56,158 nt of DNA, taken from a virus. The notes beneath the pieces are model-generated. The model made no database searches and had not been told where the DNA came from. It saw nothing but the letters and a program-made list of their open reading frames with translations. A program made the translations under genes and the position numbers. Positions 3,139 through 16,805 of this stretch are shown here, one piece after another. How positions within the stretch are numbered: position 1 is the stretch's first letter; every line of letters begins with the position of its first letter. The stretch lies in IMG/VR virus record IMGVR_UViG_3300042868_008634, positions 1-56,158 of that record, one strand, 5' to 3'.

Positions 3139-4641
3139 TCAAAACCTAAAAGTCGTCTGAATCACACCACCATAGTTATCTGAAGCATTCTTGAGTCCTT
3201 GATTGTTGGAAACATAAAACACAGCAGGAGTGATGCTAATGTTATCGCTGACTTTGTAACGATAGAAAGCTTCCCACATCAGAGCCTTCTGACTATCAGT
3301 AAGTGAAGCAGCATTACCAGGAGCACCGATGGCAAAACCAGCAGCATTTCCCTTAGCAAACACATCACTCCACTGAAGACCAGCAAACCAGGTCTGGGAG
3401 TTGGTAGCACCAGTAGGAGTTGTCTTACCAAGAGAATTCAGGCTAACATCATTCCAACCATAAGCACCTGAGATTGAAGGTACAATACCAGACTTCTTAG
3501 GTTGCCAGTAAGCATTGATAGCATAGCTGTTGGAAGATTGACCAGAAGCAAGAGCACCAGAACCACCGTTAATAGCATTGAAGGTACGAACACGAGTGCC
3601 TTCGGTTCCATAACGATAACCAAATGCAATACCATACTGAGGAGCACGATAACCAATCTGAGCAAGAGTGTTCAGAGCACCAGATTCATCAAATTCACCT
3701 TTGCTAGAATCAGAACCGTTCTGGGCAACATAGTTTACACCAGCAACAAAACCACCCTTACCTTTCTTGGTAGGTTGTGCCCACTGAGCACCGAAACCAG
3801 AACCAGTTGCCTTGTTGTAGACACCTGGAGCACCAGCAACAGCAAAGAAGTCCAGAATGTCAGACTTATAAGCAGTAGGAATCCAAGACATCTCAGTGTT
3901 ACGAACCAGAGCACCAGCAGTCAGAGTCACACCTTTAGCAAGTGCAGGGAACTGATAGTACAGACGGTCAAGTTGTACTTGGTTAGAAGTACTTTCTGCC
4001 TTATCCAGTTTGAACAGAGACGAGGAAGAACTAAAGGGTTGACTGGAGAAATTACCAGAACGCAGACGAGTCTTCAGCAAATCCTTACCCGTGAAGGAAG
4101 TATCGAAGTTCAGACGAACATCATAGTTGAATGCTGTGTTGCCAACGTTAGAATTATTAGCAAGACGAGCACCTTCTACACCACCAAGAACGAAGGTTGC
4201 TTCACCACGCAGTTTAGATGTAGTGGAGAACTGAGTTGCTTGAAGTTGACCAACTTGTGCTTCCAGTTTATCAACACGACCACGAATAACTAGAAGTTCT
4301 TCAGAAAACTCTTTTGAAAGACGTTGGAGTTCATCAGTTACTTCGGTTACACGGTCAAGGCAAGCATTCAGAAGTGCTGCTGCCTCATAACGAGTCATTG
4401 CCTTACCACCACCATAAGTTCCGTTAGGATAACCAGCAACACAACCATAACGTTCTACGAGATTGCTGAGTGCCTGATATGCCCAATCGGAAGGTTGAAC
4501 ATCAGAGAATTGAGTGACGCTTGTTGCCTGCTCAGAGGAGTATTGATTGACTGCTGCAATATTAAGGTCTGCGGCATTCGCAACAGCAGGAGCAATCATA
4601 CCAAGAGCAACAGGTGCAAGCATCAGTTGTTTGATTTTCAT
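3139..4641 (-). CDS. Cyanobacterial-type outer-membrane porin (SLH + OprB-like barrel)
   Basis: A 500-residue protein with the layout of cyanobacterial Som porins. A signal peptide ends near AVANA-A at residue 23. An S-layer-homology domain follows at about 45-100 (FSDVQPSDWAYQALSNLVER, later MTRYEAAALLNACLDRV). A short coiled coil covers about 105-135. An OprB-like beta barrel runs from about 140 to the end, closing with TTFRF, whose final Phe is typical of outer-membrane proteins. In cyanobacteria these porins pass small solutes through the outer membrane. It is transcribed alone, with its own promoters and terminator. A full-length host-type porin is unusual cargo for a phage. It may keep nutrients entering during infection, and phosphate is suggested by the repeats at 4711-4729. 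Transfer from a host is likely (inference). Confidence 0.9.
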   Translation of the reverse strand: MKIKQLMLAPVALGMIAPAVANAADLNIAAVNQYSSEQATSVTQFSDVQPSDWAYQALSNLVERYGCVAGYPNGTYGGGKAMTRYEAAALLNACLDRVTEVTDELQRLSKEFSEELLVIRGRVDKLEAQVGQLQATQFSTTSKLRGEATFVLGGVEGARLANNSNVGNTAFNYDVRLNFDTSFTGKDLLKTRLRSGNFSSQPFSSSSSLFKLDKAESTSNQVQLDRLYYQFPALAKGVTLTAGALVRNTEMSWIPTAYKSDILDFFAVAGAPGVYNKATGSGFGAQWAQPTKKGKGGFVAGVNYVAQNGSDSSKGEFDESGALNTLAQIGYRAPQYGIAFGYRYGTEGTRVRTFNAINGGSGALASGQSSNSYAINAYWQPKKSGIVPSISGAYGWNDVSLNSLGKTTPTGATNSQTWFAGLQWSDVFAKGNAAGFAIGAPGNAASLTDSQKALMWEAFYRYKVSDNISITPAVFYVSNNQGLKNASDNYGGVIQTTFRF

Positions 4642-5638: not shown

Positions 5639-5836
5639 TTATTCAAAATCTACAAAATAACCACTGATATATTCCAAAGATAATACTTCAAGATTTTCTT
5701 TTTGAATTACCCAATCACGAATTTCACTATAAACACTTTCGGCATCTTTAATTCTTTTTTCATCACATAAAGAATGCATACGGTCAATATGATTATTAAT
5801 CACATCATTGCACATTTTCTTGACGTGAAGTTTCAT
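5639..5836 (-). CDS. Conserved hypothetical protein (65 aa)
   Basis: A 65-residue, mostly helical protein starting MKLHVKKMCNDVINNHIDRM and ending SGYFVDFE. I chose the ATG at 5834-5836 because AGGAAGGA lies just upstream; the longer frame would run far into the endonuclease-like gene. It overlaps that gene by 32 bases. A perfect consensus sigma-70 promoter in the upstream coding region could drive it alone. Function unknown. Confidence 0.6.
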   Translation of the reverse strand: MKLHVKKMCNDVINNHIDRMHSLCDEKRIKDAESVYSEIRDWVIQKENLEVLSLEYISGYFVDFE

Positions 5837-6254
5837 TGAAGTAATCCTTCCTAAAGTATCTTGAAAGTATATTCGAATTATAATACTTAGGAGTTCCATT
5901 GTCAAGAGACTCAGTTAAGACATTGTTTAAGAACAATTGCCTTGTTTCTTCGTAGTTAGTTTTACCAACAGTTTTATGAAGTGATAAAATAGTTCTTTGA
6001 AACTTATCTTTTCCTATCTTTTTTATATCTTCTTTTAACTCAGGACAAGAACCATAATATTTTTTCCAATCTGATTCTTGTTTGACTTTTCTTTTCTTTC
6101 CTTTTGGTGTTCTAAAAGACCAAAAGTATTTCCTTCCCAAATATTTCCTTTGAGTTTCTTCGCAATTTATCAAATAAACAAATCCAAAATTCTCTTGAAT
6201 ATCTTCTGTCTCAAAAACTTTTCCTTGGTATAACCAAGGGTTTTCATAACTCAT
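5805..6254 (-). CDS. GIY-YIG-like (Seg-type) endonuclease
   Basis: A 149-residue protein. FGFVYLINCEETQRKYLGRK at about residues 24-43 has the spacing of a GIY-YIG core (here VYL ... YLG), with a following arginine or lysine-rich helix (TPKGKKRKVKQESDWKKYYG) and QRTILS later. Such proteins are common in T4-like cyanophages and are annotated as Seg-like nucleases; the first motif is degenerate, so activity is uncertain. AGGGA lies 8 bases before the ATG. Both an early promoter (6318-6346) and a late promoter (6279-6286) precede it. The coding sequence itself contains the promoter for the next gene. Confidence 0.6.
   Translation of the reverse strand: MSYENPWLYQGKVFETEDIQENFGFVYLINCEETQRKYLGRKYFWSFRTPKGKKRKVKQESDWKKYYGSCPELKEDIKKIGKDKFQRTILSLHKTVGKTNYEETRQLFLNNVLTESLDNGTPKYYNSNILSRYFRKDYFNETSRQENVQ
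5877..5905 (-). promoter_or_regulatory. Perfect sigma-70 consensus promoter inside the endonuclease gene
   Basis: TTGACA (5900-5905), 17-base spacer, TATAAT (5877-5882) on the minus strand, 41 bases before the 65-residue gene. All 12 consensus bases match. Confidence 0.65.
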
Positions 6255-9935: not shown

Positions 9936-10006
9936 AGATGAACGTTCCGTTCCGAGTCGGCTTACTTCCGTCTACATTCGCAATTCGCAAATAGCAGATG
10001 AACGTT
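9936..10006 (-). ncRNA. Glutamine-type riboswitch (glnA / Downstream-peptide class)
   Basis: On the minus strand: AACGTTC (closing P1 with GAACGTT), then ATCTGC...GTAGAC forming P2 with inner AUU/AAU pairs, then the conserved GACGGAAGTAAG, then a CCG-ACT-CGG hairpin and GGAACG. These elements match the consensus I know for the glutamine-binding glnA/Downstream-peptide RNAs (CGUUCA, GACGGAAGUAGG, CCGAAGGAACG). It sits between a sigma-70 promoter and a short ORF. Ligand binding is inferred from class. Confidence 0.7.
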
Positions 10007-10014
10007 AGGGACTT

Positions 10015-10044
10015 ATTATATTCCCTTGTACGTTATATAGTCAA
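10015..10044 (-). promoter_or_regulatory. Sigma-70-like early promoter for the riboswitch operon
   Basis: TTGACT (10039-10044), 18-base spacer, perfect TATAAT (10015-10020). Transcription would begin at about 10008, at the 5' edge of the riboswitch. Confidence 0.7.
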
Positions 10045-10070
10045 TTTTTTTTGTTATTTTTGTTACAATT

Positions 10071-11201
10071 TTAGAGTTTAAATCCACTAAAAGAATCTTT
10101 TGTAATATCCTGCTTAATGCCACCAACCACATAAGATTCTACTTCCGTTTCCTGTGGAGCAACTTGAAGTCCCTTAGAGGAAATCCAATGTTCAGTCCAA
10201 GGAAGTGGATTATTCTTTGCAGAAATATCATAGAGTGGTTTGAGTCCAATTGCCTTCATTCTACGGTTTGCAATCCATTCAACATAACTCCAAAGAAGTT
10301 TGTCGTTTAGACCAATCATAGAACCATCTTTGAACAGATACTCTGCCCACCTCTTTTCCTCATTTACACAATTCTCAAAGGCACCTCTTACCCATTCCTC
10401 TTCTTCTTTAGCAATTTGTTGCATTTCTGAATCATCCCCTTCACGCCACTTATTGAGGATGTTTTGAGTAATAACAAGGTGCTGATTTTCGTCTCTTGCG
10501 ATGAGAGAGATAATTTTAGCGGATCCTTCCATAAGTTTGAGTTCACCAAACGCAAAACTGCAAGCGAACGAGACATAAAACCTGATACCTTCGAGAATGT
10601 TGACATTGGCAATTGCCCTATAAAGTTTTCTCTTTAATTCAATTCTACTTTCTTTTGCATATCCAGCACCCTCTTGTGCAAAAATCCAATCATTAGATGT
10701 TCCATATTGTTGTGCAGAATTAATAAAATCATCATAAGCTCCTGTGACTGAGGATGCTCTTTCTAAAATTTTATCATTATTCAAGATGGAATCAAATACT
10801 TCAGAGGGGTCTGGATAAACATTCTTAATGATGTAAGTATAAGAACGACTATGAATCATTTCCATAAATTCCCACACAGTCATACAAGCTTCCAATTCAG
10901 GAAGAGAGCAATAAGGAATAAATGCCATTCCAGGACCACGACCCTGAACTGAATCTAAAAGAATTTGATATTTTAAATTAGAAGTAAAGATGTGCTTTTG
11001 TTCTGGACGAAGAGTTTGATAATCAGCACGATCCTTCTGTAAAGAAACTTCTTCTGGTCTCCAGAAATATCCCAACTGTTGTTGAGTTAATTTATCAAAG
11101 ACTGGATACTTATATGAATCGTACCTTTGAACTCCAAGTGGAGATCCAAAAAACATTGGTTGTTTTTTGGAGTCTACGTAAGAAGTATTAAATACTGTCA
11201 T
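10071..11201 (-). CDS. nrdB: Ribonucleotide reductase class Ia, beta subunit (R2)
   Basis: A 376-residue di-iron subunit that makes the tyrosyl radical for dNTP synthesis. Seen in order: PEQKHIFTSNL, SLPELEACMTVWEFMEMIHS (metal ligands) followed by RSYTYI holding the radical-type tyrosine, and ARDENQHLVI with the second-half Glu/His ligands. I start it at the ATG 11199-11201 (MTVFNTSYVDS); the longer frame starts with GTG inside the nrdA tail. It follows the C-terminal half of nrdA by 28 bases, and both act in the same enzyme. The C-terminal tail contains the residues expected to dock onto NrdA. Confidence 0.95.
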   Translation of the reverse strand: MTVFNTSYVDSKKQPMFFGSPLGVQRYDSYKYPVFDKLTQQQLGYFWRPEEVSLQKDRADYQTLRPEQKHIFTSNLKYQILLDSVQGRGPGMAFIPYCSLPELEACMTVWEFMEMIHSRSYTYIIKNVYPDPSEVFDSILNNDKILERASSVTGAYDDFINSAQQYGTSNDWIFAQEGAGYAKESRIELKRKLYRAIANVNILEGIRFYVSFACSFAFGELKLMEGSAKIISLIARDENQHLVITQNILNKWREGDDSEMQQIAKEEEEWVRGAFENCVNEEKRWAEYLFKDGSMIGLNDKLLWSYVEWIANRRMKAIGLKPLYDISAKNNPLPWTEHWISSKGLQVAPQETEVESYVVGGIKQDITKDSFSGFKL

Positions 11202-11229
11202 TCCCTGTATTTCTTTTTTTGAATTAACT

Positions 11230-12327
11230 CTAAATTTTACAACTGTCACAATCTTCTTCTCCTTTTAAACTTAAAATTTCCTCAATTAAATCATTAACAC
11301 CTTTAGATGATTCTTTAATTTCATCAGTCTTATTATCATATGTATTTTGATAATAAGATGTTTTCCAACCATACTTATATGTATTAAGAAGGTCTTGTGC
11401 CATCACTGACACAGGAACTTCATTATTTTCATAATTCTCTGGATTATAGGACCAGTTTCCAGAAATTGCTTGATCAAAGAATTTCTGCATAACTGCAACA
11501 ATATTAATATACCCAATATTGTTAGGCATATCCCACAAAAGCGTATAGTTATTTTTAAGAGTTCCATACTGGGGAACAATTTGTTTAAGTGGTCCCTTTT
11601 TACTTTTTTTAACTGACAAGAATCCCCTGGGTGGTTCAATTCCATTTGTTGCATTTGACACAACGGAACTGCTCTCCGATGGCATTTGTGCGGACAATGT
11701 TGAATGTCGTAAACCATATGCCTGAATGTTGGCACGTAAAGTTTCCCAATCATGTTGATATGGAATGGAGGAAAGTTCGTCTACATCTTTCTTGTAGGTG
11801 TCAATTGGAAGAATTCCCTGTGAATATTTAGTTTTGTTAAAATATTTACATGCCCCTTTCTCTTTAGCAATTTGGTTAGATGACTTCAAAAGAAAATATT
11901 GGAATGATTCAGAAAGACCATGAACAGCATCCCATGCCTCCTGTGAGTCATACTTATACCCAAGTTTAGCAAGATAGTGTGCAAGACCAATAAAACCTAT
12001 TCCAAGAGACCTACGTGCCTTGGTTGAGATCTCTGCTGCTTCAACTGGATAGTTTTGATAATCAATCAGTTCCTCCAGTCCTCTAACTGAAAGATCACAA
12101 AGTTCTTCAAACTCTTCATCAGATTTTACTTTACCTACATTAATTGCAGAAAGAATACACAAAGCAATTTCACCTTCAGGATCATCAATGTGTTGCAGAG
12201 GAGCAGTAGGAAGTGTAATTTCCTGACAATTATGGACCAGAATATCATTTGCGAAGAAGTTATGTGTTCCTTCTACAGTAATATCATAGACTGGGATTTC
12301 TTCTTCAAGATATTCAATCTTTAGCAT
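11230..12327 (-). CDS. nrdA: Split-intein C-part fused to C-terminal half of NrdA
   Basis: A 365-residue fusion. Residues 1-33 (MLKIEYLEEEIPVYDITVEG ... NFFANDILVHN) are an intein C-part with block F and the terminal His-Asn. The C-extein follows at Cys34: CQEITLPTAPLQHID, then GEIALCILSAINVG with the redox cysteine, ATNGIEPPRGF, and the C-terminal thiol pair CDSCKI. Aligned from memory with E. coli NrdA, Cys34 is the radical cysteine C439. AGGAG lies 8 bases before its ATG, inside the endonuclease gene, so it is translated on its own. Protein trans-splicing with the upstream half would give a NrdA of about 766 residues, the normal length. Confidence 0.92.
   Translation of the reverse strand: MLKIEYLEEEIPVYDITVEGTHNFFANDILVHNCQEITLPTAPLQHIDDPEGEIALCILSAINVGKVKSDEEFEELCDLSVRGLEELIDYQNYPVEAAEISTKARRSLGIGFIGLAHYLAKLGYKYDSQEAWDAVHGLSESFQYFLLKSSNQIAKEKGACKYFNKTKYSQGILPIDTYKKDVDELSSIPYQHDWETLRANIQAYGLRHSTLSAQMPSESSSVVSNATNGIEPPRGFLSVKKSKKGPLKQIVPQYGTLKNNYTLLWDMPNNIGYINIVAVMQKFFDQAISGNWSYNPENYENNEVPVSVMAQDLLNTYKYGWKTSYYQNTYDNKTDEIKESSKGVNDLIEEILSLKGEEDCDSCKI
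12229..12327 (-). other. IntC of split NrdA intein
   Basis: 33 codons encoding intein blocks F and G, ending VHN just before TGT for the +1 cysteine (12226-12228). Confidence 0.9.
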
Positions 12328-12992
12328 TTTTTTCTCCTGTTTTGTTCTAAAAGTTGTTTAGCAAGTGTTCTTTGAGTTTCGTCTCTATAATAAGGATTAT
12401 ACACCAATCCAGTTTGTTCTTCAATAGATTTATAAAAGTTTTTATGTTTCCCACCAAATCTATTTTTAGAAAAATGTTTTGGAAACTTAATATTCAATTC
12501 ATTAATAGCAAACTCAACTATTCTTTGTCTTCCACCAATAAATCCATATTTTTTAGCAAACTTTACACCTACTTCTATAAGTTCCTCATCAGTGTATCCA
12601 GAATAGTTTGGATTATTATAACCAGTAGTTCTTATGGAAATACCATTTCTCCACTCTTCCTGAACCTCCTGTGAGCATCTTGGAAGCATCCATCCACCAG
12701 TTCCTCCTGAAGTGGCATTATAACCTTTAGTATCACTTTCAAAGAGTTTAATGAAGTGAGTTTCCTTTTCATTAATAAAGTTTTCATCTTCAGTTTGGTA
12801 AGTTTCAATCACAGATAAGTCCCAACAATTTTCCCCATATTTTCTAATAGAAGAATGAAATCTAAATTTAGAACCATTTCTTGCTGATGATAAATGACGA
12901 TTCCAACGATGTTCTAATGAGTATTCAGTTTTTCCTATGTAAGATTTTCCGTTATTTTTATTGGTAATTTTATAAACAATATATGTTTTCAT
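12321..12992 (-). CDS. GIY-YIG homing endonuclease between nrdA halves
   Basis: A 223-residue protein with a clear GIY-YIG domain: TYIVYKITNKNNGKSYIGKT at residues 3-22, then RWNRHLSSARNG, and an acidic FINEKETHFIKLFES segment holding the expected catalytic glutamate, then GYNATSGGTGG. The C-terminal part (RRIVEFAINEL, HFSKNRFGGKHKNF) is a likely DNA-binding region. It lies exactly where a canonical intein would carry its endonuclease domain, but as a separate gene with its own late promoter. It overlaps the IntC start by 7 bases. It probably cuts intein-free nrdA alleles to spread the element (inference). Confidence 0.88.
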   Translation of the reverse strand: MKTYIVYKITNKNNGKSYIGKTEYSLEHRWNRHLSSARNGSKFRFHSSIRKYGENCWDLSVIETYQTEDENFINEKETHFIKLFESDTKGYNATSGGTGGWMLPRCSQEVQEEWRNGISIRTTGYNNPNYSGYTDEELIEVGVKFAKKYGFIGGRQRIVEFAINELNIKFPKHFSKNRFGGKHKNFYKSIEEQTGLVYNPYYRDETQRTLAKQLLEQNRRKKC

Positions 12993-12993
12993 T

Positions 12994-13047
12994 ATAGGAA
13001 GTGTAATCTCATAACTATTTATAAGATATGGAAATTACACTTCCTAT
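12994..13047 (-). promoter_or_regulatory. Perfect 14-bp inverted repeat enclosing a late promoter
   Basis: ATAGGAAGTGTAAT (12994-13007) and ATTACACTTCCTAT (13034-13047) are exact inverse copies. The loop holds TATAAATA at 13016-13023, and the endonuclease ATG begins one base past the repeat. Read-through RNA can fold and hide the start; RNA made from the internal late promoter lacks one arm. This layout is known for T4 intron endonucleases such as I-TevI. Confidence 0.8.
13016..13023 (-). promoter_or_regulatory. T4-type late promoter TATAAATA in hairpin loop
   Basis: Exact match 23 bases before the GIY-YIG gene. Confidence 0.7.
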
Positions 13048-13051
13048 CATA

Positions 13052-13465
13052 TTAGTTGATTACCAATTCATCAGTTTCGGTTAGGTCTTTTGCCATCACA
13101 TACCCACGATTTTTTGTGAATACTTTATGTTCTGGTGTAACTACGATACTCTTACCACTTTCTTCATCAGTAATTTTCATTACCTTTGCTTTTGGTGATG
13201 TTTCGGCAAATGCTGTAATAGGTGCCCATTCTTGTTGATTAGTTTCTGTATTATAAGAAAGAACTTCTATTTGAGGAACATCCTCACAAGGATCATTATC
13301 ACTTACTTTATAAGACATAACTCCAATTTCTCTGGAACTAATATATTCATCCAGATCTCCAATCTCAATTTCTTCTTCATAAACTTTCCAATCATAAATC
13401 TCTCCAATATCATCATATATTGCTTTTGGGTATTTGATTTTAATCTTTGTATCACCAGCAACACA
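13052..13465 (-). other. IntN of split NrdA intein
   Basis: 137 codons plus stop. TGT for Cys1 is at 13463-13465, directly after AGT AAT CTT (SNL) of the extein. It closely resembles NrdA split inteins reported from marine metagenomes (fractured genes), by my recollection of their sequence pattern. Confidence 0.9.
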
Positions 13466-14767
13466 AAGATTACTCATCTCAACCTTATCCATGAAGGAAG
13501 AGTGAGAATTACAATGATCGATATTCATAATGTAAATACGACCAGTTTCTGCACGTTCCTTCAGGAGGTCCAGAAAGAGTTCTTGAGCACCGATAGTTTT
13601 TCTTGGAATAGACTCATCTCGTTCATAACGAACATATAACTCGTCAAATCTATCAGTGCCAAAAGCATCATACAAACCAGGAACAGAGTGCGGAGAGAAG
13701 AGTGAGATCTCTTCGTTGCGGATGAATCGTTCATAGAACAGTTTGCTAATTTGGATACTGTAGTCTAACTTGCGAACACGATTATCTTCGGTTCCTTTGT
13801 TATTTTTTAATACAAGAATATCCTCTATTTCTTGATGCCAGATAGGAAAGTGGACTGTAGCAGAACCACCTCTGATGCCGTTTTGTGTACAGCATCGCAC
13901 AGTTGCTTCAAACTTTTTAAGGAAGGGGACCACACCTGTGTGTTGTACCTCTCCACCTCTAATTTTACTGTTGATGCCACGGATTCGACCTGCGTTGATG
14001 CCGATTCCCGCCCTTTGTGCAACATATCTGCCGATAGCCATATCAGAACTAAAGATGCTATCGAGGGTGTCATCAACATCAACAAGCACACAGCTAGCAA
14101 ATTGTCGAAGTGGAGTTCGCACTCCCGCCATGATAGGTGTGGGAATGTTGATTTTATGTTTGGAGATTGCGTTGTAGTATCTTTTGACATATTCCAATCT
14201 AATTTCTTTTGGGTACTCTGCAAAAATAGTCAAAGCAATCATAATGTACATAAATTGAGGAGTTTCATAAACTTTTCCAGAACTCCTATCTTGCACCAAA
14301 TATTTATCAATCACTTGCCTGAGACCTGCATAAGTAAAAAGCATATCTCTTTCGTGATCAATAAAATGATTTACTTTATCAATTTCTTCTTTAGAATACT
14401 TTGTTAGTATTTGACTATCATAGATGTCTTTACTTGTACAAGTGATAATGTGATCATATAGATCAGAAGTACAACTAATACCACCATATAAACTTTTTCT
14501 TAGAGAAAACAAAAGCAATCTTGCTGCAACATATTGATAATTTGGATGTTCCAAATCAATCAAATCAGATGCACTACGAATAAGAATCTCTTGAATTTCT
14601 GCAGTTGTAATTCCATCATAGAACTGAATTCCAGATTGCATTTCAACTTGAGATGCAGAAACCCCTGCAAGATTTTTACAAGATTCTTCTACCATTAAAT
14701 GCATTTTATCAAGATCAAGTGACTCAATAGAACCATTTCTTTTTTTAACTTTTAATCCGTTGCTCAT
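13052..14767 (-). CDS. nrdA: N-terminal half of NrdA fused to split-intein N-part
   Basis: A 571-residue fusion. Residues 1-434 are the class Ia reductase alpha subunit: an ATP-cone-like start (VKKRNGSIESLDLDKMHLM), ASCVLVDVDDTLDSI with the first redox cysteine, GIGINAGRIRG, RGGSATVHFPIWH, and ending SFMDKVEMSNL. Cys435 begins the intein N-part of 137 residues: CVAGDTKIKI (block A), VLSYNTETNQQEWAPI, VVTPEHKVFTKNRGYVMA (block B), then DELVIN and a stop. The ATG at 14765-14767 overlaps the primase stop (ATGA); the longer frame uses TTG. The protein is inactive as an enzyme until joined to its other half. Confidence 0.93.
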   Translation of the reverse strand: MSNGLKVKKRNGSIESLDLDKMHLMVEESCKNLAGVSASQVEMQSGIQFYDGITTAEIQEILIRSASDLIDLEHPNYQYVAARLLLFSLRKSLYGGISCTSDLYDHIITCTSKDIYDSQILTKYSKEEIDKVNHFIDHERDMLFTYAGLRQVIDKYLVQDRSSGKVYETPQFMYIMIALTIFAEYPKEIRLEYVKRYYNAISKHKINIPTPIMAGVRTPLRQFASCVLVDVDDTLDSIFSSDMAIGRYVAQRAGIGINAGRIRGINSKIRGGEVQHTGVVPFLKKFEATVRCCTQNGIRGGSATVHFPIWHQEIEDILVLKNNKGTEDNRVRKLDYSIQISKLFYERFIRNEEISLFSPHSVPGLYDAFGTDRFDELYVRYERDESIPRKTIGAQELFLDLLKERAETGRIYIMNIDHCNSHSSFMDKVEMSNLCVAGDTKIKIKYPKAIYDDIGEIYDWKVYEEEIEIGDLDEYISSREIGVMSYKVSDNDPCEDVPQIEVLSYNTETNQQEWAPITAFAETSPKAKVMKITDEESGKSIVVTPEHKVFTKNRGYVMAKDLTETDELVIN

Positions 14768-15768
14768 ACTCGTTTCCAACTAATAAGTTTTGCTTTTGCT
14801 TCTAAACCAGAATATCTGTTTGATTTTAACATACTATTAACGTCAAGTCCAGAGAGAACCATATCATTAATATCCTTTTCATTGACATTTGATGGCCATA
14901 TCACAATAGATAATTTGAGGTCTATTGCTTTTTCCATTCTTTCCACAATTTGTTTATTTCTCTTTTCATTATCATAAACAATTACAAAATCAACATTAAA
15001 ATTACTTATTAAAAACATCTTATCAATATCAGCACCAACCATAGCAATAGCATTATCAATAAACATACTATCAATTGGACCCTCTGTGATATAAACAGTT
15101 TTGTTCCAATCTACATTATCAAGACCATAAATCTTTGGTTGATTTTCATCTAAAATAATTGTAATGTATTTAATTTTAGAATTTTTATTTAAACTACGAC
15201 CTTGAAACCCTATGATTTCCCTATTGTTTATGAGAGGAATGATGATTCTTGGTTCATCTTGATCTATAGATTCAAAAGTATATTTTTGCTCATTTGTCCA
15301 TTTCTTAAAATTCTCACAATAATATAATTGATTTAAGAATTTATCTGGAATTTTTCTATCCTGTAAATAGACTTTTGCTGGATGCTCAGTATTTAGTTCT
15401 GCTATAGTTGGTAGATTTATCTTATGTTTTTTTTCAAAAACAGTTTTTTCAAATTGAAAATTTGGATTTGGAGTGTTGGAATTTTTGCCCGTAATACCAC
15501 TCTTATACCTTTCCATCACATACTGATCGTATAAGACAACATCAAAATCTTTTAAAAAATTTGTGAATGTTCTTGAAATCCCACAATTATGACACTTATA
15601 ATTATGGTCATTTTTTAATTTATAAATGTATCCTCTTGCTTTACTTTTGTGTCGTTGAGAATCTCCGCAATAAGGACATCTAAAATTATAAAGACCAGTT
15701 TTTACTTGTTTAAATTTTTGCAATCTGGAAGAAACAAGTCCAACATATTTGGAATCAATTAAACTCAT
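14764..15768 (-). CDS. gp61: DNA primase
   Basis: A 334-residue DnaG-type primase that makes RNA primers with the gp41 helicase. The N-terminal zinc ribbon is CPYCGDSQRHK ... YKCHNCG at about residues 31-61. The Toprim domain shows VYITEGPIDSMFI and VDFVIVYDNEKRN. The gene is coupled to nrdA by ATGA overlap, joining primer and dNTP synthesis in one transcript. A sigma-70-like promoter lies 30 bases upstream in the preceding gene. Confidence 0.92.
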   Translation of the reverse strand: MSLIDSKYVGLVSSRLQKFKQVKTGLYNFRCPYCGDSQRHKSKARGYIYKLKNDHNYKCHNCGISRTFTNFLKDFDVVLYDQYVMERYKSGITGKNSNTPNPNFQFEKTVFEKKHKINLPTIAELNTEHPAKVYLQDRKIPDKFLNQLYYCENFKKWTNEQKYTFESIDQDEPRIIIPLINNREIIGFQGRSLNKNSKIKYITIILDENQPKIYGLDNVDWNKTVYITEGPIDSMFIDNAIAMVGADIDKMFLISNFNVDFVIVYDNEKRNKQIVERMEKAIDLKLSIVIWPSNVNEKDINDMVLSGLDVNSMLKSNRYSGLEAKAKLISWKRV

Positions 15769-15781
15769 TACAAAAAGAATA

Positions 15782-16204
15782 TTACTTCATTCTCTCTATT
15801 CTACTTGGTTCTTGTTGTGGTGTCAAGAAGGAAAGAACTGGTGGAGCAAATTTGATAATGATTGCAACAACTGCCAAACCACCCAGTATTTGCCATCTAA
15901 ATTTTGAAATTCCTTCTACCTTTTCTTCTACTTTTTCTATTCTTTCCCCAAGTTCTCTACTAATTGCTTCGTGTTGTTGTTTTGAAGATTCTTTAATATC
16001 CTCAATCATTTTAACAATAATATTGTCTGTTCTATTGCACTGCTCAATCTTTTCATTATGGACAGCTAACATTTGACTAATATTTTGACTTGTCTCACCA
16101 ATCTTTTGAATTGCGGTATCAATTCGTTCCATCATCTGTTCATAAACATTAATACGCTCTTCGAGTAAAGCTATTTTTGTTTCTGTTGATGATGGGTTAA
16201 ACAT
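15782..16204 (-). CDS. Coiled-coil membrane-anchored protein (140 aa)
   Basis: Residues about 8-105 form a long coiled coil (KIALLEERINVYEQMMERI ... ELGERIEKVEEKVEGI). A hydrophobic stretch at about 108-130 (WQILGGLAVVAIIIKFAPPV) is a transmembrane anchor, followed by a short charged tail. This N-in coiled coil plus C-terminal anchor recurs in phage proteins of unknown role. A spanin or holin role is possible but nothing specific supports it. Its 3' end carries the promoter for the primase gene. Confidence 0.65.
   Translation of the reverse strand: MFNPSSTETKIALLEERINVYEQMMERIDTAIQKIGETSQNISQMLAVHNEKIEQCNRTDNIIVKMIEDIKESSKQQHEAISRELGERIEKVEEKVEGISKFRWQILGGLAVVAIIIKFAPPVLSFLTPQQEPSRIERMK
15798..15826 (-). 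promoter_or_regulatory. Sigma-70-like early promoter for primase-nrdA
   Basis: TTGACA (15821-15826), 17-base spacer, TAGAAT (15798-15803), inside the end of the coiled-coil gene; start point about 20 bases before the primase ATG. Confidence 0.6.
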
Positions 16205-16212
16205 TGTCCTAA

Positions 16213-16434
16213 TTATTGTAGAGGTTTTCTTCTTTGCATTTTCGCAAGATCTTTAAAGAATGGATTCCAATATCTTTTTCTGCCCTTTCTTAAATCAACA
16301 GGAGGTTGGTCTGGGGGAAGTCCCGCAATATTAACAGGTCCATTTGGGTTATTTGTAGAATTAGCAATCACAGGAGATGCTCCTTCCTCTTTAAGATTAC
16401 GAACAATATTAATTAATCTATCTACTTTATCCAT
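16213..16434 (-). CDS. Conserved hypothetical protein (73 aa)
   Basis: A small basic protein with an N-terminal helix (MDKVDRLINIVRNLKEEGA), a Pro/Asn-rich linker (NPNGPVNIAGLPPDQPPVDL) and a basic tail (RKGRKRYWNPFFKDL ... RRKPLQ). It overlaps the previous gene by one base. Similar proteins occur beside structural genes in cyanophages. Function unknown; virion association is a guess. Confidence 0.6.
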   Translation of the reverse strand: MDKVDRLINIVRNLKEEGASPVIANSTNNPNGPVNIAGLPPDQPPVDLRKGRKRYWNPFFKDLAKMQRRKPLQ

Positions 16435-16805
16435 TAGACCACATTTAATTGCTTTAGGAAATCTATATCTATTGGTATATTATGAACTTCAGTTTTTGGA
16501 TATTCCGGAAGTCTTCCCAAGTAAATAATAAATGTTTTAATGATGCTCCAAAATTGACTATCAATTTTATAAAATAATAATGGTGTTGTAGCATCACCAA
16601 AAACATTATAAAGAATTATAAAATGATTAATTAATAAATGAATATTCAATGACCCAGATGATTTATATTTTTTCAACAATCTATTAATCCAATTAAATCT
16701 TTTCAAATCCTCATAAAAATCATCTTGGGTCAGTGATTGTGGATTATCATAATGTTTAATAGCAAACATTAAATAATTGTCTTCATTCAACTCATCAAAT
16801 CTCAT
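16434..16805 (-). CDS. Conserved phage protein of unknown function (123 aa)
   Basis: A compact helical protein starting MRFDELNEDNYLMFAIKHYD, with RFNWINRLLKKY and HLLINHFIILYNVFGDATTP. This pattern (AIKHYDNP, RLLKRY, LNHFI-LYNVFG) is a widely conserved phage family of unknown role usually found near head or tail genes. It follows the Ig-like decoration gene by 7 bases and overlaps the next gene by one base. Confidence 0.65.
   Translation of the reverse strand: MRFDELNEDNYLMFAIKHYDNPQSLTQDDFYEDLKRFNWINRLLKKYKSSGSLNIHLLINHFIILYNVFGDATTPLLFYKIDSQFWSIIKTFIIYLGRLPEYPKTEVHNIPIDIDFLKQLNVV

Follow-up and report, generated by a model that had tools for sequence, protein, structure and literature searches.

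The virus record IMGVR_UViG_3300042868_008634 of IMG/VR, all 56,158 nucleotides of which are referred to here as the window, carries a class Ia ribonucleotide reductase (RNR) gene, nrdA, which is broken in two by a split intein and has a gene for a GIY-YIG endonuclease in the gap. We interpret the split intein and the free-standing endonuclease as a mobile homing cassette lodged in the catalytic-site codons of an nrdA of T4-like cyanophage type and, taking the sequence evidence together with the mechanism proposed below, we put the probability of this reading at about 0.8. The element is likely to be mobile, to be controlled in an I-TevI-like manner and to have a target that can be read from its sequence, a combination for which we know of no report.

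Structure of the fractured gene and its intein

All parts of the locus lie on the minus strand. The first open reading frame (ORF; 13052–14779, with the ATG at 14767) encodes an N-extein of 434 residues (13466–14767), which ends in SNL and matches the Pfam families ATP-cone, Ribonuc_red_lgN and Ribonuc_red_lgC (1–213). It runs on into the N-terminal intein half (IntN; 137 residues, CVAGDT...TPEHK...DELVIN; 13052–13465 with the stop codon). The endonuclease gene follows (12321–12992; 223 residues; Pfam GIY-YIG, E = 9e-13), its frame overlapping the ATG of the third gene (ATGCTAA). This last gene (11230–12327) opens with the C-terminal intein half (IntC; 12229–12327; 33 residues including Met, MLKIEYL...DILVHN) and continues into a C-extein of 332 residues (11230–12228 with the stop codon). 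The Ribonuc_red_lgC matches of the two halves meet, covering 1–213 and 210–522 of 523 positions.

With nrdA in two ORFs, one intein half on each at the break and a free-standing endonuclease ORF between them, the window is a well-supported member of the fractured genes, with a GIY-YIG partner. A preliminary description of this DNA, made from its letters, had claimed an N-half ending in SNL followed by CVAGDTKIKI and a stop, a 223-codon GIY-YIG gene in the gap, a second gene opening with a 33-residue intein part that ends in His-Asn before CQEITLP, and a spliced product of about 766 residues. It was right in every detail that the sequence allows to be checked: ORFs, translations and Pfam matches agree with it, the predicted product would have 434 + 332 = 766 residues, and relatives with the same three-gene order were sought and found in 96 IMG/VR contigs.

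The intein halves match complementary parts of the Pfam Intein_splicing profile (21–93 and 125–155 of 155; E = 4e-7 and 3e-7, both below the Pfam gathering score), and IntN matches the NrdJ-1 split intein (8ubs) with E = 9e-16. Cys1, TxxH (TPEH), a C-terminal His-Asn and a +1 Cys are all present in the translations, the residue pattern that defines a class 1 split intein. A HINT (intein) fold is suggested through a contiguous relative, L012, rather than through the window's own halves; the model of that intein (pLDDT 89) matches NrdJ-1 best and then many other inteins. Its linker falls between the modelled strands 134–136 and 144–160, with a short strand (139–141) inside, which is the usual endonuclease position. 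The ratio of nonsynonymous (dN) to synonymous (dS) divergence is 0.022 in IntC. The first 77 codons of IntN (13235–13465 in the window) are hypervariable in the relatives (median dN 0.65, dS 0.66); the last 60 are conserved (dN 0.10).

The first C-extein residue, directly after the intein, is the Cys aligned to Cys439 of E. coli NrdA when the intact nrdA of phage DSL-LC03 is compared with the E. coli enzyme in the PDB (position 458 of chain 8vhp minus an offset of 19, which was derived from the 2r1r row). Cys439 is the thiyl-radical cysteine. The catalytic cysteine of the reductase would therefore double as the +1 nucleophile of the intein.

The endonuclease and the probable mobility of the cassette

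Tyr7, Tyr18, Gly20, Arg29, Glu77 and Asn92 are invariant in 39 of 39 aligned GIY-YIG proteins, and the catalytic Tyr, Arg, Glu and Asn of the domain are present in the window protein. The window residues correspond to Arg27, Glu75 and Asn90 of I-TevI. The protein matches the I-TevI catalytic domain in sequence and in predicted fold, and it matches phage homing-endonuclease families; a median dN/dS of 0.058 over residues 1–100 signifies strong purifying selection on the catalytic half. In nine of the 38 profiled loci that could be measured the C-terminal half is far more diverged (65–76%) than the N-terminal half (83–94%), a pattern as after domain exchange. A similar catalytic half, a much diverged C-terminal half and near-constant leader arms occur together in L015, L017, L019, L035, L038, L066, L070, L073 and L077.

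Synonymous divergence shows the cassette to be much younger than its flanks. The comparison used 45 distinct sequences out of 79 complete loci (44 for the second GIY segment and 41 for the second C-extein segment). For the last 100 codons of the N-extein the median dS is 2.30, with 436 of the 990 pairs saturated; it is 0.66–0.68 in IntN, 0.43–0.46 in the endonuclease gene, 0.48 in IntC and 1.31–1.53 in the C-extein. Both exteins have row medians above that of the endonuclease gene in 45 of 45 rows, and the last 60 IntN codons do so in 43 of 45; when single pairs are compared, dS is higher in the N-extein than in the endonuclease gene for 969 of 990.

Identity profiles were drawn for eight pairs, picked for a near-identical endonuclease gene or a known crossover. 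The cassettes of L056 and L061 are 96–100% identical, with extein bins at 52–98%. Near-identity extends from the leader of the endonuclease gene through IntC in L133/L138 and in L032/L072, with different IntN sequences, and nuclease and IntC can therefore also move onto another IntN. Between L057 and the window there is a crossover inside the endonuclease gene, after which the two do not differ as far as the comparison reached, 700 bases into the C-extein. The dS contrast and the sharply bounded tracts of identity point to movement of the cassette from one diverged nrdA gene to another, and the genomic trace of mobility that marks a homing endonuclease is seen in the dS values, the row medians and the tracts.

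The leader of the endonuclease gene

The 59 nucleotides between the IntN stop and the endonuclease start (12993–13051, minus strand) form a predicted hairpin with a main stem of 17 pairs (−24.8 kcal/mol, z = −7.3; none of 200 shuffles as good). Its loop holds the word TATAAATA (13016–13023, minus strand), which is the T4-type late-promoter word; the part of the leader from this word on folds at only −2.1 kcal/mol. Across 40 distinct leaders 96.2% of the cells are paired, compared with 40–48% when they are slid. The loop contains TATAAATA in 87 of 91 loci; L070, L073 and its copy, and Klebsiella phage KP13-7 are the exceptions. The window has 15 copies of the word where 5.7 are expected, a count that none of 100 shuffles attains; 14 of the copies are on the coding strand, ten of them 10–40 nt before an ATG ORF of at least 80 residues. 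On these sequence features the leader has the I-TevI-type layout of a hairpin before the start codon with a late promoter inside.

The arms of the hairpin are copies of the nrdA site. The 3' arm (GAGATTACACTTCCTA; 12995–13010, minus strand, ending 2 nt 5' of the endonuclease ATG) and the reverse complement of the 5' arm (13031–13046, read on the plus strand as GAAATTACACTTCCTA) equal or nearly equal positions +7 to +22 of nrdA past the intein site, the codons of E-I-T-L-P-T. In the intein-free nrdA of DSL-LC03 the 3' arm matches the site in 16 of 16 bases, with no more than 11 anywhere else in the gene, and in intein-free S-BM3 it matches in 13 of 16. The mean match over 66 intein-free sites is 13.6/16; 20,000 shuffles have a mean of 4.4 and a maximum of 11.6. 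Within 1 kb the site is strictly the best for the 3' arm in 58 and for the 5' arm in 55 of the 66, and for reversed and complement controls in none. A matrix made from only those 66 sites gives its highest scores in the 56 kb to both arms and to the nrdA site of the window (26.9, 25.9 and 25.9; next 16.9). It also finds the word in the KP13-7 leader (0/1000 shuffles as good), weakly in the leaders of L160 and L159 (1/1000 each), and finds little or nothing in two leaders with HNH partners (31 and 500 of 1000).

The simplest reading is that the GIY-YIG protein binds a 16 bp word present in both nrdA and the leader. The leader then predicts the target of the endonuclease, at +7 to +22. There is an operator-like resemblance at the late promoter, where the arms clearly resemble this target, the homing site itself being a prediction. 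If this is true, the leaders of such cassettes could reveal what their endonucleases target.

The end of the endonuclease gene also appears to serve its neighbour. An AGGAG within its last codons (12334–12338, minus strand) is the likely ribosome-binding site of the C-terminal nrdA gene, and GGAG occurs at most 16 nt before the IntC ATG, inside the last endonuclease codons, in 91 of 91 loci (KP13-7 and phage TG1 left out); KP13-7 is without GGAG at this place. Elsewhere in the window a second GIY-YIG gene, of SegE type (5805–6254, minus strand; Pfam PF19835, E = 2e-52), has TATAAATA 25 nt before its start.

Relatives and allele series

Relatives were taken from IMG/VR searches with IntN and with the GIY-YIG protein, as the best 80 of 111 and the best 80 of 101 confirmed loci, respectively. 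With 29 duplicate entries of contigs removed, 113 IMG/VR contigs and five isolate loci, or 118 loci, were classed; the searches started from the intein and the GIY-YIG protein of the window, so that the allele counts describe seeded samples and are not frequencies. The split intein with endonuclease gene is complete (IntN–GIY–IntC) in 84 loci (83 IMG/VR contigs and KP13-7) and cut on one side by a contig end in 13, so that 13 of the 96 contigs with the window's arrangement are incomplete. The intein is contiguous in 14 loci, split with no GIY match in two (L058 and Yersinia phage TG1, L147) and absent from three, all isolates; two contigs end too early (L036 and L052). In these three isolates (DSL-LC03, L144; S-BM3; S-T4) nrdA is uninterrupted and the extein halves abut. 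Amongst cultured phages TG1 and KP13-7 have the layout; of the 16 phage records matched by IntN, about three were examined.

Amongst the matches listed in a further search, made with IntC plus the first part of the C-extein, L162–L224 are intein-free with abutting extein halves (63 of 63) and L156 and L157 have contiguous inteins. In the same set L159, a single contig, is split with an endonuclease frame full of stops, L160 is split with another GIY-YIG gene and L161 is split with a partner that is HNH by Pfam; L148 and L158 have the IntC side only and were left unclassed, and L149–L155 are second copies.

Nine of ten loci that were read have a single frame of IntN, a linker of about 7–11 residues and IntC, and contiguous inteins are up to 94% identical to the window's IntN (L033). 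The exception is L058, in which the N-half and the C-half are open and the stretch between them is reduced to a remnant of the leader, TATAGGAAGTGTAATTTCT, fused to AAGGAGAGAACAAAATG, the ribosome-binding site with the IntC start. We read this one contig as a split allele from which the endonuclease gene has been lost. More nuclease-less split alleles were sought in IMG/VR by the leader-remnant pattern; amongst the nine matches an nrdA intein was present only in L058, which therefore stands alone. A tree of 64 intein rows did not polarize contiguous versus split forms: parsimony gives seven changes, at least three of them forced by well-supported branches, with 25 of 57 inner branches open and long branches for L143, L147, L160, L161 and others.

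Intein-free, contiguous, split with endonuclease, split with broken endonuclease (L159) and split without endonuclease (L058) alleles share one site. Discussion of how split inteins originate, and of whether fractured genes act as live homing elements, usually has only single loci to draw on. At the present nrdA site all these allele states occur together with transfer tracts, and the steps are therefore directly comparable.

Proposed mechanism and alternative explanations

We propose the following course of events. Early in infection a read-through mRNA would yield both NrdA halves, which would trans-splice (Cys1, His-Asn, Cys+1) to a 766-residue NrdA, and the hairpin would hold the endonuclease off. 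Late transcription would start inside the loop, the hairpin could not form and the endonuclease would be made. It would bind the 16 bp site GARATTACACTTCCTA in an intein-free nrdA and cut nearby, and repair would copy the cassette in. The endonuclease would also bind the two inverted copies beside its own late promoter, limiting itself as I-TevI does, and the broken nrdA would stay expressed through the ribosome-binding site that the endonuclease gene carries at its 3' end. In a fuller form of the proposal the protein reads one word, GARATTACACTTCCTA, as both homing target and inverted-pair off-switch; the result would be a self-limiting element that the split intein keeps harmless, that carries a ribosome-binding site with it and that turns into a plain split intein when the nuclease is lost, as in L058. 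Towards this fuller form we lean only slightly.

Several observations weigh against these proposals. The C-terminal half of the endonuclease model has no solved relative (pTM 0.43). In S-T4 the site matches the arm in 12 of 16 bases, with two other places in the gene at 13. The target word survives in the carrier's own C-extein (12207–12222, minus strand; GAAATTACACTTCCTA, +7 to +22), and self-cleavage must therefore be avoided in some way. Covariation in the leader amounts to three pairs changed on both sides, a number reached by 1 in 500 shuffles; slid controls also reach up to three, so this is weak evidence. A Shine–Dalgarno word was looked for in the window's 3' arm, ATTACACTTCCTAT, and none was found, a departure from the I-TevI-type layout; repression would therefore have to act on the start-codon region. 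The TG1 leader arm does contain AGGAG. Lastly, the arm copies could act purely as RNA, and ordinary recombination in mixed infection could be the source of some of the tracts.

These last two points can be extended into full alternatives. The intein might be an ordinary one, with the endonuclease a non-homing passenger and the identity tracts the outcome of plain homologous recombination amongst co-infecting phages, which in T4-like phages is frequent; the endonuclease frame is indeed broken in L159 and the gene absent from L058. We consider this unlikely, given active-site residues that are invariant in 39 of 39 proteins, a dN/dS of 0.058 over residues 1–100 and a cassette whose dS is below that of both exteins in all 45 rows, an island hard to account for without site-specific drive. 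Alternatively, the arms might copy nrdA since the leader serves as an antisense RNA on nrdA mRNA rather than as a binding site for the endonuclease. The complementarity of the 5' arm to the window's nrdA mRNA at these codons would suit such a role, yet the 3' arm fits the intein-free sites (13.6/16) better than the carriers' own C-exteins (12.1/16 over 38 distinct pairs), and the nrdA site of L015 itself agrees with its arm in only six of 16 bases, which argues against an antisense role on the carrier's mRNA. KP13-7 likewise has codons of its own that differ from its arms, and the two leaders of HNH-type partners score low; an antisense leader seems to us rather unlikely.

The halves of NrdA might also assemble as separate chains with no splicing, as reported for Aeh1 NrdA, the split gene of which is described as functional with neither intron nor intein at the break (PMC2988022 and PMC3653736), and some relatives of the window have a second break without an intein. 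The class 1 splicing residues are present, however, the dN/dS of IntC is 0.022, and in an unspliced N-half 137 additional residues would sit right at the catalytic cysteine, all of which makes assembly of unspliced chains distinctly unlikely. The window is a single IMG/VR virus record, and a misassembled or chimeric contig might be suspected. The same junctions recur, however, in many contigs of different samples, and comparable layouts exist in the cultured phages KP13-7 and TG1; because IntN is 96–100% identical in nine loci from different IMG/VR records (L001–L009) and 84 of the 118 loci are complete, the arrangement is no product of chance and misassembly is very unlikely, to the point of being negligible. 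The homing cassette is the reading that we prefer to all four.

Genomic setting and further observations

The broken nrdA is flanked by nrdB (10071–11249, minus strand) and, by the annotation of relatives, a gp61-like DNA primase gene (14764–15768, minus strand). The nrdA region is closest to T4-like cyanophages, with 376 of 580 matching records named as Synechococcus phages and DSL-LC03 and S-T4 as the best matches; the window is probably from a virus of cyanobacteria. RNA families, looked for as a sign of a group I intron, gave no match at the gathering threshold in the window, L010, L033, L059, L058 or L001. Scans of 10000–16500 gave no clear excess of sigma-70 promoters (26 versus 29.3 in shuffles, sd 6.0) or of terminators (5 versus 3.2, sd 2.0). 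A protein of 500 residues encoded at 3139–4641 (minus strand) has S-layer-homology and OprB porin domains and is of outer-membrane type.

Further insertions were seen around nrdA in the relatives. A contiguous mini-intein nrdA with a second, intein-free break some 15–20 codons downstream is present in L010 (6529–8532), L020 (3249–5252), L033 (6526–8568) and L059 (6487–8690). In L010, L020 and L033 this break is filled by an endonuclease-like gene, that of L010 having distant matches to phage homing endonucleases, and the exposed tails at the break look charge-complementary, rich in Lys behind the N part and in Glu/Asp ahead of the C part, as if they offered another route to reassembly. Endonuclease-like genes, reminiscent of mobE in T4, occupy the nrdA–nrdB gap in L053 (3517–4206; GIY-YIG and NUMOD domains), in L067 (4687–5367), L077 (2756–3445) and L117 (5398–6081), assigned by likeness to L053, and in L062 (8262–8981; HNH below the Pfam cut-off). 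In KP13-7 (L143, 2653–8183) nrdA apparently consists of several pieces and has more than one insert; the split-intein break is the one studied.

Comparison with known systems

The fractured genes that Dassa and coworkers described in 2009 are reported to be alike in having a conserved DNA-metabolism gene broken by a split intein, a free-standing endonuclease between the halves and a phage-like context. About half of those loci reportedly have Vsr-like enzymes, in contrast to the GIY-YIG enzyme found here, and gene control elements are said to be brought in with the endonuclease gene. Seven nrdA and two nrdJ from ocean metagenomes are credited to Dassa 2009 in a review of split phage RNR genes (PMC3653736). 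A GIY-YIG enzyme in the gap of a fractured RNR gene was already in print in 2020 for the AceL NrdHF split intein (PMC7891396), and such a partner is therefore not new; the suggestion in the preliminary description that it might be little described does not hold to that extent. The AceL NrdHF locus differs in being a class Ib beta gene with a class 3 intein (Ala1), as against a class Ia alpha gene with a class 1 intein (Cys1) in the window. The literature searched, with Dassa 2009 outside it and in the portions of the papers available, contained no target-copy leader, no series of contiguous, split and endonuclease-less alleles at one site and no transfer tracts for such cassettes.

A close parallel in control is I-TevI of the T4 td intron. 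Its late promoter shares sequence with a copy (15/20) of the homing site, and the enzyme binds this copy for self-repression, and late transcripts without the hairpin are a layout given for I-TevI and, in similar form, for I-TevII, I-TevIII, segB and Aeh1 mobE (PMC2988022). Common to I-TevI and the window are a GIY-YIG enzyme, a late promoter that would free late transcripts of the hairpin and a promoter region like the homing site, which in the window is the predicted one. The window differs in having a split intein, with no group I intron found, in two inverted copies of the predicted target that form the hairpin arms and in a 3' arm without a Shine–Dalgarno word. Aeh1 resembles the window in that a T4-like nrdA is cut by a homing endonuclease gene; its mobE is of the HNH family, and the parts of PMC2988022 and PMC3653736 available describe halves that assemble and no intein-mediated rejoining.

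In TG1 and KP13-7 intein halves matching those of the window flank the break of nrdA, and an endonuclease gene lies between them. The TG1 partner is annotated as HNH, with no Pfam match; KP13-7 has a GIY-YIG protein 34–35% identical to that of the window and further nrdA breaks. The intein of the window is probably also like NrdA-2. NrdA-2 is a metagenomically identified NrdA split intein used as a ligation tool (PMC7090010), and the present family adds tens of natural split inteins, together with contiguous relatives, to this widely used protein-ligation toolbox.

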